Assembly: GCA_013153845.1 (NCBI GenBank)
Contig: JAADDS010000071.1
Location: 1 to 32,053 of the forward strand
Length of the DNA: 32,053 nt
Source: Methanococci archaeon
GTDB taxonomy: Archaea > AGJL01 > Methanococci > Methanococcales > Methanocaldococcaceae
Direction: 5' to 3'
In this document: piece after piece, positions 4,976 to 31,980 of the stretch
Layout: each line of letters opens with the position of its first letter
Position numbering within the stretch: position 1 is the first letter of the stretch
Made by a program: the position numbers and the translations under genes
Notes under the pieces: generated by a model
What the model saw: only the letters and a program-made list of their open reading frames with translations
What the model was told of the DNA's origin: nothing
The model's database searches: none

Positions 4976-5173
4976 ATGGTTAGAGTAGTTCCTTTAACTG
5001 ATGAGGAAAAGATGAGCATCGTTTCAGGACTGAGAAGCTCAGTTCCCGCTACAAAACTTGTAACTTTAAGAAAATTACAGGAGATTGCAGAAGTTAGGCC
5101 AGAGGCACTTATCTATTTAGACACGTATGATAAGGTAACGTTGAATGAAATCATTGCCATTAGTTATCGCTAA
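4976..5173 (+). CDS. N-terminal fragment of a HEAT-like/zinc-ribbon protein interrupted by an insertion
   Basis: The 65 residues start at ATG 4976 after AGGGGAGGGGTAG and read as amphipathic helix pairs (KLVTLRKLQEIAEVRPEALIYL) like one HEAT-type repeat. The frame stops at TAA 5171-5173, just where a palindrome-rich element begins. The frame at 5376-5804 resumes with LLNQTIEYDPDEILRREA, which continues the helical pattern naturally after VTLNEII. I read the two as halves of one ancestral gene of about 190 codons. The last residues (AISYR) may already be encoded by the element. Whether this stub makes a stable protein is unknown. Confidence 0.7.
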   Translation: MVRVVPLTDEEKMSIVSGLRSSVPATKLVTLRKLQEIAEVRPEALIYLDTYDKVTLNEIIAISYR

Positions 5174-5267
5174 GAAAGCATCGCCCTTTAGGGCGATGAT
5201 GAATTCAGATGAAAACCTAACGGTTTTCATTACTCTCCTCGCTACGCTCGGAGATAGGGGATAAGGT

Positions 5268-5277
5268 TTATATATTC
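5268..5277 (+). promoter_or_regulatory. TATA-like box inside the inserted element
   Basis: GGTTTATATATTC stands between the left hairpins and the G+C-rich right half. A start about 25 bases downstream would fall near 5298, just before the first G+C-rich hairpin, so the right half could be transcribed from within the element. Confidence 0.4.
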
Positions 5278-5297
5278 AAAAACGAATACATTCTTAT

Positions 5298-5412
5298 CGA
5301 TGGGTCGCCTGACCCGGCCCGATGACAGAACCGACCCGATGACCTCCTGGCGACAGGAGTGCAAGGGAGTTCCCTATGGAAACCTCCGCCCTTCAGGGCG
5401 GAGAGGAGGTCA
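5298..5412 (+). ncRNA. Candidate structured RNA from the right end of the element (omega/reRNA-like)
   Basis: The right half is strikingly G+C-rich for this genome. It folds into consecutive hairpins: GGGTC-GCCT-GACCC, CTCCTG with a GCGA tetraloop (GNRA type), a small GGGA/TCCC stem, and a 9-pair CTCCGCCCT/AGGGCGGAG stem next to the end. CCCGATGAC occurs twice (5318-5326 and 5335-5343), and CGACCC 5332-5337 can also pair with GGGTCG 5302-5307, giving a possible pseudoknot. TnpB-associated guide RNAs derive from this end of IS605 elements and read into the flank. Here the flank would be the disrupted gene, starting GTTTGCTAAATCAG. Being a guide RNA is inference; the folding is visible. Confidence 0.5.
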
Positions 5413-5804
5413 GTTTGCTAAATCAGACTATAGAATACGATCCTGATGAGATTCTTAGAAGGGAGGCAATGATAACTCTCGAAAAGGTTAAAAAAGCATT
5501 AGGAACGAAATTTTCTACCTTTGTTCCACTTTGCACGTCTTGCAACTCACCTATCGATTTGGGTTGGAATTTTTGCACAAATTGTGGTGCAGAGATCAAA
5601 AATATGAAATTTGAAGAAGAGATTGCAAAGTGTCCAAACTGCAACAATTACATCTCCGATTCTTGGAAACATTGTGCTCATTGCGGGGCTAAATTGAAAG
5701 AAGAGGAAGAGGCAGTGTTAAGATGTCCAAATTGTAAGCGTCCTATTCAACCAGAGTGGATAATTTGCCCTTATTGCGGTTATCGACTTAAAAGAAAACC
5801 ATGA
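5376..5804 (+). CDS. C-terminal part of the interrupted protein, with three zinc ribbons
   Basis: This frame encodes 142 residues. About 12 (METSALQGGEEV) come from the right end of the inserted element, whose GGGAG (5365-5369) and ATG 5376 look able to start translation. A helical stretch follows (13-45), then three CxxC...CxxC zinc ribbons at about 53-71, 86-104 and 117-135, each with the ending C-x2-C-G. Ribbons of this kind bind nucleic acid or protein partners; the specific role is unknown. The original gene probably began at 4976. Either the cell makes this shortened protein from the new start or the gene is dead. The ribbon Cys residues are all intact, which argues for a recent insertion or continued use. 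Confidence 0.75.
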   Translation: METSALQGGEEVSLLNQTIEYDPDEILRREAMITLEKVKKALGTKFSTFVPLCTSCNSPIDLGWNFCTNCGAEIKNMKFEEEIAKCPNCNNYISDSWKHCAHCGAKLKEEEEAVLRCPNCKRPIQPEWIICPYCGYRLKRKP

Positions 5805-26237: not shown

Positions 26238-28610
26238 TTATCGTCCCCAGAAGATATTATTTGTTAATTTTTGCATTAACTCCATATATGATAACAACGC
26301 CTCTTTTTCATCAGGCCTCAACTTGTCCATGTATTTGTGATAGAGTTCTCTAACATGACTCTCTGGAACTGCCACATACATATAGTCGCCTTCGTCAACA
26401 TGTCTCTTTAACACAACCTTTCCATCTATGGAAATAGAAACTGCCTTTCCTGCTTTTGCTTCCTTTACATTCTCTCCTTTATCTTTTATTTCCTTCACAT
26501 ACCCGAGTAGCATTCCATCCTCCCTCATTAGGGGGTAGCCAACTTTTAAAGTCCCATATTGAACTTCAACTCCACAGATTGCAGGATCTTTCTGCCTAAA
26601 TATACATTCTGGGAGGATTTTCACAATCGCTGGTTTAATTAATTTTTCAAATTCCTCATATTTCATCTTCTCCTCTTCTTTCTTAATCCACTCTGTAAAG
26701 TCCTCAACTAACTTATATAATATATTGTTTGAAAATACCTTTATTCCATATTTTTCTATCTCTTTCTGTGCCTCTGGAAGAATTTTCACGTTAAACGCAA
26801 CTATTGCACCATTCAAAGGATTTGTTTGCTTGTATGACGCAACTTCAATCACATCTTTTTTTGTTATATCCCCAACCTCTGCCTTCTTAATTTTAACTCC
26901 TGCTTTTCTCAACTCATTAGCCAATGCTTCCAAAGATCCGAGAGTATCTGCCTTTATTAAGATTCCTTCATCATCAACCTCTATCTTTGCCTCTTCAACT
27001 TCTTTTACAACTTCTTCTTTTGCTTCCTCTATCTTTTCTTTTGGCACGATCCTTATTGGACAGCCCGCAATAACTTTATCTAAGTCAGGAGCGGCTATCT
27101 TAACTCCAGCAGCTGCAACAATTTCATTCACTGGTTTAAATTTATCTCTTGGATCTCTCATTTCGTCTAACGGTTTCGGTTTTAGTAGAGCTTTTACCTT
27201 TGTGATAAGAACATCGTTTGGTAGCCCTACAACTAAATAGTCCCCTCTTCTTGCAATACCATCATATATTATCGCATCAATTGTCGTTCCAAGACCTTTT
27301 TCTTCTTTAACTTCTAATATTGTTCCTTTTGCATAACCATCAACATTAAGTTTTAACCTCTCTTCTAAAAACTTCTGAGCCAAACCCGCAACCATCATAA
27401 GTAAATCAGGAATACCCTCTCCAGTGATTGCTGAAACAGGGATTATACAAACAGTTTTTGTTACGTCTTGAACTCTTGAATAGAGATCCGCTTCAAATCC
27501 AAGCTCATTTAATGGTTTTATTATATTTTCATACAATCTTATTTCAAATTCTGTTAATGCATTTGGATGCTGGCTTTTTTCATTAAAGTTTAGGATAAAT
27601 GGAACATTTTTAGAGTTCCATCCGGGAATTAAGTCGATTTTATTTGCCGCAACGACAAACGGTGTTTTACATTGTTTTAATATATTAACTGCCTCAACTG
27701 TTTGCGGTTTAAAGCCCTCGTTAATATCTACAACCAATATCGCAATATCTGCCAGTGATCCTCCTCTTTTTCTTAATGAAGTGAATGCTTCATGCCCGGG
27801 AGTATCTATAACCAAAAGTCCTGGGATTTTTAAATCTGCCTTTAACGTTTTTAGCAGATCTCCACAAAGTTGGTTTATAACTTCTATTGGAATCTCACTC
27901 GCTCCAATATGTTGGGTTATCCCTCCTGCTTCTCTTTTTGCAACTCTTGTCTGTCTTATTTTATCAAGTAATGTGGTGTTATGGACTAAAATGCCATTTG
28001 CGATAAAATTATGAGTAGTTGTAGTTAGATCGTATACATAACCGTCATAATTTATCTTTTCAATATTCTTAATCTCCACAAATTTCAGATTTTTAAGATC
28101 TGGAATTTCATCCTCATCTATTCCAAGTAATAACTTCCCAACTATTAAATCTTTATTCTCTTCTATTTTTATTTCTTTATTATTGACATCAGGTATTGCA
28201 ACTTTTAATCCGATTCTTAATTCCTCAGCAGGCAACCATCCTAAGTTTGTCAGGAAAGGATGTTCAGGAGTTGTTGTTATCTCAAGATTGTTATTTAATA
28301 ACACTTTTATCATTTTTCCGCAATGTTTCAATCTCCACACATGGGTTGCGGTTATTTGAGATAATCCCTCTTTTCCTACTCCAAAAACTTTAATATTTAG
28401 TTCTTTTATTTCTGTTTTGTCATCTTTTTTAACTATTGTTGTTCCTTTATTAAAGAGATCTTTTATTGCTATTTTTCCAAATTCAGTTAACACACTCTCG
28501 TTTGGTGTTAAACACTTTCCGTGATCTACATGTCCCAGCACACAAACAATTGGACATCTAAGATTTTGAGATTTTTTATCTTTTTTTGTCTTATCTTTCT
28601 TTTTAGCCAT
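26238..28610 (-). CDS. infB: Translation initiation factor aIF5B/IF2 carrying an intein in its P-loop
   Basis: The 790-residue product is a 611-residue IF2/eIF5B GTPase interrupted by a 179-residue intein (residues 33-211). The GTP-binding motif GHVDHGKTT is split after the Lys: GHVDHGK, intein, TTLLDKIR. After splicing the enzyme promotes ribosomal subunit joining. Other GTPase motifs are DTPGHEAF (G3) and ANKIDLIPG (G4); domains II, III and IV follow, with a helical C-terminus (YHKYMDKLRP). ATG 28610 follows GAGGGATATT; the N-terminus is Lys-rich (AKKKDKTKKDKK). Without splicing the factor cannot bind GTP, so activity depends on the intein. Confidence 0.97.
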   Translation of the reverse strand: MAKKKDKTKKDKKSQNLRCPIVCVLGHVDHGKCLTPNESVLTEFGKIAIKDLFNKGTTIVKKDDKTEIKELNIKVFGVGKEGLSQITATHVWRLKHCGKMIKVLLNNNLEITTTPEHPFLTNLGWLPAEELRIGLKVAIPDVNNKEIKIEENKDLIVGKLLLGIDEDEIPDLKNLKFVEIKNIEKINYDGYVYDLTTTTHNFIANGILVHNTTLLDKIRQTRVAKREAGGITQHIGASEIPIEVINQLCGDLLKTLKADLKIPGLLVIDTPGHEAFTSLRKRGGSLADIAILVVDINEGFKPQTVEAVNILKQCKTPFVVAANKIDLIPGWNSKNVPFILNFNEKSQHPNALTEFEIRLYENIIKPLNELGFEADLYSRVQDVTKTVCIIPVSAITGEGIPDLLMMVAGLAQKFLEERLKLNVDGYAKGTILEVKEEKGLGTTIDAIIYDGIARRGDYLVVGLPNDVLITKVKALLKPKPLDEMRDPRDKFKPVNEIVAAAGVKIAAPDLDKVIAGCPIRIVPKEKIEEAKEEVVKEVEEAKIEVDDEGILIKADTLGSLEALANELRKAGVKIKKAEVGDITKKDVIEVASYKQTNPLNGAIVAFNVKILPEAQKEIEKYGIKVFSNNILYKLVEDFTEWIKKEEEKMKYEEFEKLIKPAIVKILPECIFRQKDPAICGVEVQYGTLKVGYPLMREDGMLLGYVKEIKDKGENVKEAKAGKAVSISIDGKVVLKRHVDEGDYMYVAVPESHVRELYHKYMDKLRPDEKEALLSYMELMQKLTNNIFWGR
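27978..28514 (-). mobile_element. Mini-intein in infB, 179 residues, no homing endonuclease
   Basis: Splicing blocks are complete. It starts at Cys1 in CLTPNESVLT (block A). TPEH near 82-85 of the intein gives the block B His, block F is GYVYDLTTTTHNF, and block G ends ILVHN. The next residue is the acceptor Thr of TTLLDK. Between about residues 105 and 150 only a short Glu/Lys-rich linker (VNNKEIKIEENKD) remains. There is no LAGLIDADG motif and no room for one. The IF2 intein I recall at this same site in M. jannaschii is far longer and carries the endonuclease, so this copy has probably lost it. Splicing should be functional, but mobility is lost. Confidence 0.93.
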
Positions 28611-31352: not shown

Positions 31353-31980
31353 TGATTATTTTATTGAAAATACAAATTCTGGTTTTAACTTATTTCCATC
31401 CTCCAAGAGGTCTGATTTTAACTAGTGATGTTATTTGTGATAGGTGCGGGGCAATATATGATAATTTCCATCCTCCAAGAGGTCTGATTTTAACAAGAGA
31501 GCAATTTTAGAAAAAATTTGTGAATATTCGTTTCCATCCTCCAAGAGGTCTGATTTTAACGAACAATTCTCTAAATTACTTAAATCCCTCGCATGGGATT
31601 GTTTCCATCCTCCAAGAGGTCTGATTTTAACATACATAACTACCACCTGAGCTTTCTGACTAAAAAGTTTCCATCCTCCAAGAGGTCTGATTTTAACTGT
31701 ATAAACATTAAAGAATTAGAAAATATAGAAAATGAAAAGTTTCCATCCTCCAAGAGGTCTGATTTTAACTTATCGTTCAATTAGGAGATTAAGAAAGCAA
31801 TTATAAGGGGTTTCCATCCTCCAAGAGGTCTGATTTTAACTCAAATATATTTAAAACTAACATTTCAGATATATTAAAAAAGTTTCCATCCTCCAAGAGG
31901 TCTGATTTTAACAAAATATTACTTGATCTCCTAATTTATTTCTAATGTCGTTTCCATCCTCCAAGAGGTCTGATTTTAAC
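31323..31980 (-). CRISPR. CRISPR array, nine full repeats, read on the minus strand
   Basis: On the plus strand the unit starts GTTTCCATCCTCC and ends GGTCTGATTTTAAC (31 bases, 30 of them identical in all nine). Cores begin at 31393, 31465, 31531, 31602, 31668, 31740, 31811, 31883 and 31951, with the degenerate copy at 31324 before them. Spacers measure 36-42 bases between cores. On the minus strand the repeat starts GTTAAAATCAGACC and ends GGATGGAAAC, as in methanococcal arrays, with a short CCTC/GAGG stem; ATGGAAAC would be the 5' tag. The seven right-hand repeats carry G at the junction and the older left ones carry A. No cas genes are in the window, so the type cannot be assigned directly. 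Confidence 0.97.

Follow-up and report, generated by a model that had tools for sequence, protein, structure and literature searches.

Results

The window analysed here, a 32,053-nt stretch of DNA from a heat-loving, methanogenic Methanococci archaeon (genome G000), contains a gene that is split in two by a short insertion element (Table 1). In the alignment of all copies of this element, the left junction reads T[C/T]AC followed by CATTAGTTGTCGCTAAGGAA-hairpin-GGAGAGGAATTCAG, while the right junction reads hairpin-GGAGAGGAGGTCAG followed by any sequence. The same site is contiguous in three related genomes, reading AATTATTAC directly followed by TTTGCTAAATC in the sister genome G011 and AATTAC directly followed by ACTACTAAATC in G004 and G008, and the joined flanks of the window keep the host-gene reading frame. 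From these empty sites, it is evident that the insertion was precise and duplication-free, entered a TTAC site, and split a gene encoding a zinc-ribbon protein of ~190 aa. The change to the TTGC found in the window could have occurred either before or after the insertion. Precise, duplication-free insertion at a short target is a hallmark of IS200/IS605-type ends, and both ends of the element carry subterminal hairpins in the same sense. A search for the Y1 (HUH) transposase (PF01797) found none in the same genome, the assembly of which is 87% complete; the element itself is non-autonomous. Elsewhere in the window, a CRISPR array (Rfam CRISPR-DR39, nine repeats listed) occupies positions 31392-31980 at the window end, and an IF2-like translation factor frame at 26238-28610 (- strand) contains, as judged by eye, an apparent short intein (CLTPNESV...LVHN).

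Table 1. Features of the split locus (window positions) and of the smallest related elements.
Feature	Position	Strand	Description or basis
Interrupted host gene, 5' part	4976..5157	+	60 codons + 2 nt of ~190-aa zinc-ribbon protein
Target/TAM position	5154..5157	+	TTGC here; TTAC at empty sites of G011, G004, G008
Whole element	5158..5413	+	256 bp, tnpB-less IS200/IS605-type, MITE-like; junctions from aligned copies and empty sites
Left end (LE)	5158..5260	+	common to HgcC elements and ordinary LE-tnpB-RE elements of the same genomes
LE subterminal hairpin, IPL-like	5179..5198	.	copy alignment
TATA box TTTATATA	5267..5274	+	32 nt before RNA start
HgcC RNA, proposed omegaRNA scaffold; right end (RE)	about 5299..5413	+	RF00062 match, covariation
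P1 hairpin loop CUGACC	5309..5314	+	possible pseudoknot partner of 3' end
Hairpin with GNRA loop GCGA	5344..5359	+	stem 5344-5349/5354-5359; 4/5 modelled pairs covary
RE terminal hairpin, IPR-like, CUCCGCCC-UUCA-GGGCGGAG	5385..5405	+	copy alignment, consensus structure
3' terminal GGUCAG	5408..5413	+	element end and possible pseudoknot partner
Would-be guide	5414..5433	+	host sequence after RE; 12 bases after TTAC identical at G011 empty site
Interrupted host gene, 3' part (zinc ribbons)	5414..5804	+	Pfam Zn_ribbon_3/DZR; empty site
~52-bp mini-elements	L104 1150-1205 (-); L070 1532-1580; L115 1221-1270		approximate coordinates

The right half of the element encodes HgcC, an RNA of Rfam family RF00062, which matches the + strand at 5300-5424 with 97.3 bits (E 5e-23; gathering score 50). 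The G+C content reaches 64% at 5300-5399 vs about 35-40% around it, and the fold energy is -50.3 kcal/mol vs -41.8 +/- 3.6 for shuffles (z -2.4). In the consensus structure, hairpin P1 is followed by P2, which has two parts and bears the GNRA loop, and then by P3 and the terminal P4; the stems covary: among 15 copies, 12 pairs are changed on both sides, a score reached by 0/500 shuffles. The loop of P1 may form a pseudoknot with the 3' end, as 98.9% of the cells are paired and the two segments are almost invariant; the evidence for this possible pairing is complementarity, with backing from conservation and from distant homologues but not from covariation within the family. An alternative pairing, UGACCUCC with GGAGGUCA, dominates the minimum-energy fold of the window, and was rejected as it is possible only in the copies of this species. 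A TATA-like box precedes the RNA start by 30-34 nt in 18/21 copies, one of them a full copy whose upstream sequence differs. The original prediction, which likened 5298-5430 to a TnpB guide RNA on account of its G+C-rich hairpins, GNRA loop, possible pseudoknot, and TATA-like box, is supported in each of these particulars; its span needs trimming at one side, since the scaffold covers about 5299-5413 and the element ends at 5413, leaving 5414 onward as flank and would-be guide. The fact that the RNA belongs to a named Rfam family had been missed.

HgcC has been known since 2002 as a small RNA lacking a function, and its Rfam family derives from early archaeal non-coding RNA screens. For Pyrococcus furiosus, an antisense position of HgcC relative to a transposase gene has been reported. 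HgcC transcripts have been shown by RNA-seq (PMC4247193), and the same paper cites northern blots. In T. kodakarensis, each of HgcC1-3 begins within a transposase gene and has its orientation (PMC4247193). Other papers call the function of HgcC unresolved (PMC5732400) or unknown (PMC5496347). No mention of HgcC together with TnpB was found in the open-licence literature, although the identification could have been made elsewhere.

Genome G000 contains two further strong HgcC copies, one of which lies inside a full-length element on contig C67 with an intact tnpB and an almost identical HgcC right end. The matching tnpB element predicted for this genome is therefore present, as is the predicted conservation of the fold among copies. 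Copies combining LE and HgcC, with or without tnpB, occur in G000 and in 8 other genomes of the Methanocaldococcales; many are devoid of tnpB, and in every copy HgcC makes up the right end, directed outward. Most insertion sites are species-specific, with empty counterparts in congeners, the flanks being variable and the LE common. On the left flank, the target motif is sharply defined; the right flank shows no motif beyond a weak C at +1. An adjacent motif had been anticipated at the left junction, and T[C/T]AC is indeed found there in 17/18 intact copies (the decayed L024, with left flank ATTC, was left out, and L049 was realigned by one base to agree with the register of the others), although the window itself has TTGC where the same flank in the sister empty site has TTAC. 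Within one mismatch, the only match to the would-be guide of the window in its own genome is the right junction of the element.

Several related elements were also encountered. Mini-elements of ~52 bp, in which the LE hairpin is joined directly to GAGGAGGTCAG at a TCAC target, are the smallest mobile-looking units. One orthologous site is occupied by a 259-bp tnpB-less element in L018 (G013) and by a full tnpB element in L108 (G004); because their promoter regions differ, this would suggest replacement between copies rather than a simple deletion. The LE is likewise present on ordinary-orientation elements with a different right end (G016:C19, C24). Three ordinary LE-tnpB-RE elements of the same genomes (L063, L080, L116) end in TGTCAT, and by eye their upstream hairpin loop UUGGCA could pair with UGUCA, i.e. 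a like pseudoknot in other letters.

The copy in G007, which we take to be M. jannaschii, offers a second well-defined example. The best HgcC of this genome (150.9 bits) lies in a 225-bp element with left flank TTCAC, and its joined flanks are contiguous in eight congeners (TCAC followed by C[CT]T...). In G008 and G009, 20/20 bases after TCAC equal the would-be guide of this HgcC; thus, if functional as a guide, it would target its own empty site.

The tnpB genes that adjoin strong HgcC copies share a single element layout, which the original prediction had not foreseen: tnpB is inverted, starting near HgcC and reading toward the LE. This is the case in G000, G004, G012, G016, and G024, as well as for a tnpB remnant in G000:C66. 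The gene is intact in G000, G004, and G012, and broken in G016 and G024. The inverted-orientation TnpBs form one clade (100/100) in a tree whose label table mistakenly also took in L013, an unrelated neighbouring TnpB; the tree gives no firm placement of the clade among other archaeal TnpBs. RuvC residues D174/E259/D338 and the zinc cysteines are invariant in the intact proteins. In an AlphaFold model, the predicted N-terminal RNA-binding lobe resembles that of ISDra2 TnpB (8ex9; rmsd 4.1, 179 columns); the RuvC half is poorly modelled (mean pLDDT 60), so the lobe match alone was used. The inverted clade was not found in the HgcC-bearing genomes G001, G007, G011, and G013. Other TnpB types are present in these genomes.

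Because tnpB is inverted in the full element, HgcC is not a tnpB 3' UTR here. The guide RNA thus cannot arise by processing of tnpB mRNA, the route known for TnpB, which counts against the guide reading. HgcC consequently needs its own promoter, and the upstream TATA-like box suggests that it has one. Such a divergent arrangement of HgcC and tnpB with separate promoters was unexpected in the Methanocaldococcales. Between the divergent starts, two full elements (L008, about 1305-1335; L108, about 2650) contain the palindrome TGTCGTAAT-N6-ATTACGACA, a candidate operator that could possibly control both HgcC and tnpB. The full HgcC element of G000 is directly adjoined by another TnpB, a 442-aa frame from a different clade (L008 2605-3501, - strand).

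As the pseudoknot partners are nearly invariant within the family, the pairing was sought outside it with an RE pattern, which returned 119 loci, almost all archaeal. As the pattern preselects the last hairpin and GAGGAGGTCAG, similarity in that part is partly circular; the loop pairing and the position of tnpB are not. At 17 of these loci, the RNA is immediately preceded by the end of a same-strand TnpB frame, which is the ordinary omegaRNA position. A hairpin loop GACC/GATC complementary to the terminal GGUC is present in 13/17 of these tnpB elements (shuffles: mean 2.8, max 7), as opposed to a loop-to-3'-end complementarity in 1/49 LE-like controls, and GACC and AGAC are the commonest of all 256 loop tetramers. 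Furthermore, the 3' ends of same-strand tnpB genes give sub-threshold RF00062 matches in Thermococcus (L191, 46.4 bits, E 1e-7; also L182, L132), the Desulfurococcales, and others, with further such matches in L134, L218, and L225. Some of these RF00062 matches overlap the known omegaRNA family sot0042, and in several loci the match overlaps one to RF02656, the haloarchaeal tnpB omegaRNA family (PMC12558985). RF00062 members are also found on Archaeoglobaceae contigs, with no tnpB found nearby. The 96 genomes searched in the phylum of G037 gave no match. A covariance search of the distant loci with our own model R1 was rejected: nearly all loci score, bare left ends included, because their last 27 bases are set by the fetch pattern, and the search was not used as evidence.

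Discussion

The sequence singled out in the original prediction makes up the right end of an IS200/IS605-type element that is non-autonomous, and it is an HgcC gene. HgcC, in turn, is probably a TnpB guide RNA (omegaRNA/reRNA), a reading in which we have considerable confidence. The anatomy of the element, its family membership, the covariation, the target motif, the empty sites, and the cognate tnpB are direct observations. Based upon the RE position, the covariation, the loop pairing, the matches at tnpB 3' ends, and the literature, we conclude that HgcC most likely serves a number of archaeal TnpBs as their omegaRNA.

Several steps can be envisaged from here, with binding by TnpB, its use in trans, cleavage, and retention of the insertion all being matters that we infer. 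HgcC would be transcribed from its own promoter across the transposon end into the flank, such that the ~115-nt scaffold, with its 5' hairpin loop paired to its own 3' end, is followed by host sequence acting as the guide. A TnpB supplied in trans, presumably by the intact cognate gene elsewhere in the genome, would bind HgcC and cut T[C/T]AC plus flank, which is the empty allele of the very same locus, and repair from a filled copy would then restore the element. The filled locus would be spared, because the TCAG of the RE is one base off the TAM TCAC. More tentatively, HgcC and its TnpBs may constitute a split system, in which a monophyletic TnpB clade with a flipped gene works in trans with own-promoter HgcC RNAs freed as mobile elements of ~210-340 bp, each guarding its own site; we regard this as a fairly open proposition, leaning slightly against it. 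As there are genomes with HgcC that lack the cognate TnpB, many HgcC copies may be idle, and some of those in M. jannaschii, G001, G011, and G013 may be inert relics or have acquired another role.

It is conceivable, though unlikely, that the right end is purely a DNA feature, its terminal hairpin serving an IS605 transposase and the remainder of HgcC hitch-hiking without an RNA function. The terminal hairpin and the TCAG end resemble the IPR and the cleavage site found at IS605 termini, there are copies of 52 bp with a single hairpin, and many copies have no tnpB; however, stems far from the end covary, the TATA-like box keeps a fixed distance even where the intervening sequence differs, HgcC transcripts have been reported (PMC4247193), and the complementarity of loop and 3' end recurs in distant tnpB elements. 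A slightly less probable scenario still is that the host or the element has taken over HgcC for a different RNA role, e.g. as a regulator, and that it no longer guides TnpB. This would fit its good preservation in M. jannaschii and three other genomes without the inverted clade, as well as the Archaeoglobaceae members found without a neighbouring tnpB, but the copies remain the ends of mobile elements with variable flanks and a common LE, they mostly occupy species-specific sites that are empty in congeners, and other TnpB types are present in the genomes concerned.

We consider it very improbable that the true guide RNA is instead encoded on the left side, on the minus strand and past the end of the inverted tnpB, where it would take its guide from the left flank. 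Since the tnpB of the full copy reads toward the LE, the usual downstream position would correspond to the left half, which also folds well (z -3.9). Against this, the target motif occupies the left flank and the sequence of the right flank is arbitrary, as expected for a guide at the RE; several HgcC elements (e.g. L039, L025) do not have the extra hairpins on the left; and there is no Rfam match on the minus strand there. The left half was accordingly excluded as a guide RNA, given the left-flank target motif and the missing conservation.

If HgcC is an omegaRNA, its parallels to known systems are instructive. By covariance model, the RNA of the window is a member of the HgcC family, and it differs by its placement as an IS605-type right end. 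It is similar to the omegaRNAs of IS200/IS605 TnpBs (ISDra2; haloarchaeal sotRNAs, RF02656) in lying at the RE, pointing toward the flank, having the TAM at the LE, and possibly forming a pseudoknot, and RF02656 and RF00062 matches overlap on archaeal RNAs. It is distinct in apparently having its own promoter, and in that tnpB, rather than overlapping the RNA with its 3' end, is absent in the window and inverted and divergent in the full copies. The usual same-strand upstream tnpB, arguably non-essential for an omegaRNA, accompanies the HgcC-like RNAs outside the order and not those within it. Stand-alone IscB omegaRNA loci without an adjacent nuclease gene were reportedly described by Altae-Tran in 2021; these resemble the nuclease-less HgcC loci, unlike which they belong to the IscB/HNH family and have the guide at the RNA 5' end. 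The 3' end of the solved ISDra2 omegaRNA is pseudoknotted to a distant upstream site (PMC10097598), much like the putative pairing of the HgcC loop with its 3' end. A comparable history is that of the RAGATH-18-derived reRNAs of IS607 TnpB, an orphan conserved motif that was later recognised as a TnpB guide RNA (PMC11061315), except that these belong to IS607 elements and have tnpB upstream of the RNA.

The reading of HgcC as a guide RNA would provide a testable function for an Rfam family that is still described as function-unresolved. The divergent arrangement of TnpB and guide, with separate promoters and mobile stand-alone guides, would break with the rule of a guide RNA overlapping the 3' end of tnpB. 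Furthermore, the retention of nuclease-less elements by a nuclease acting in trans would become directly testable.
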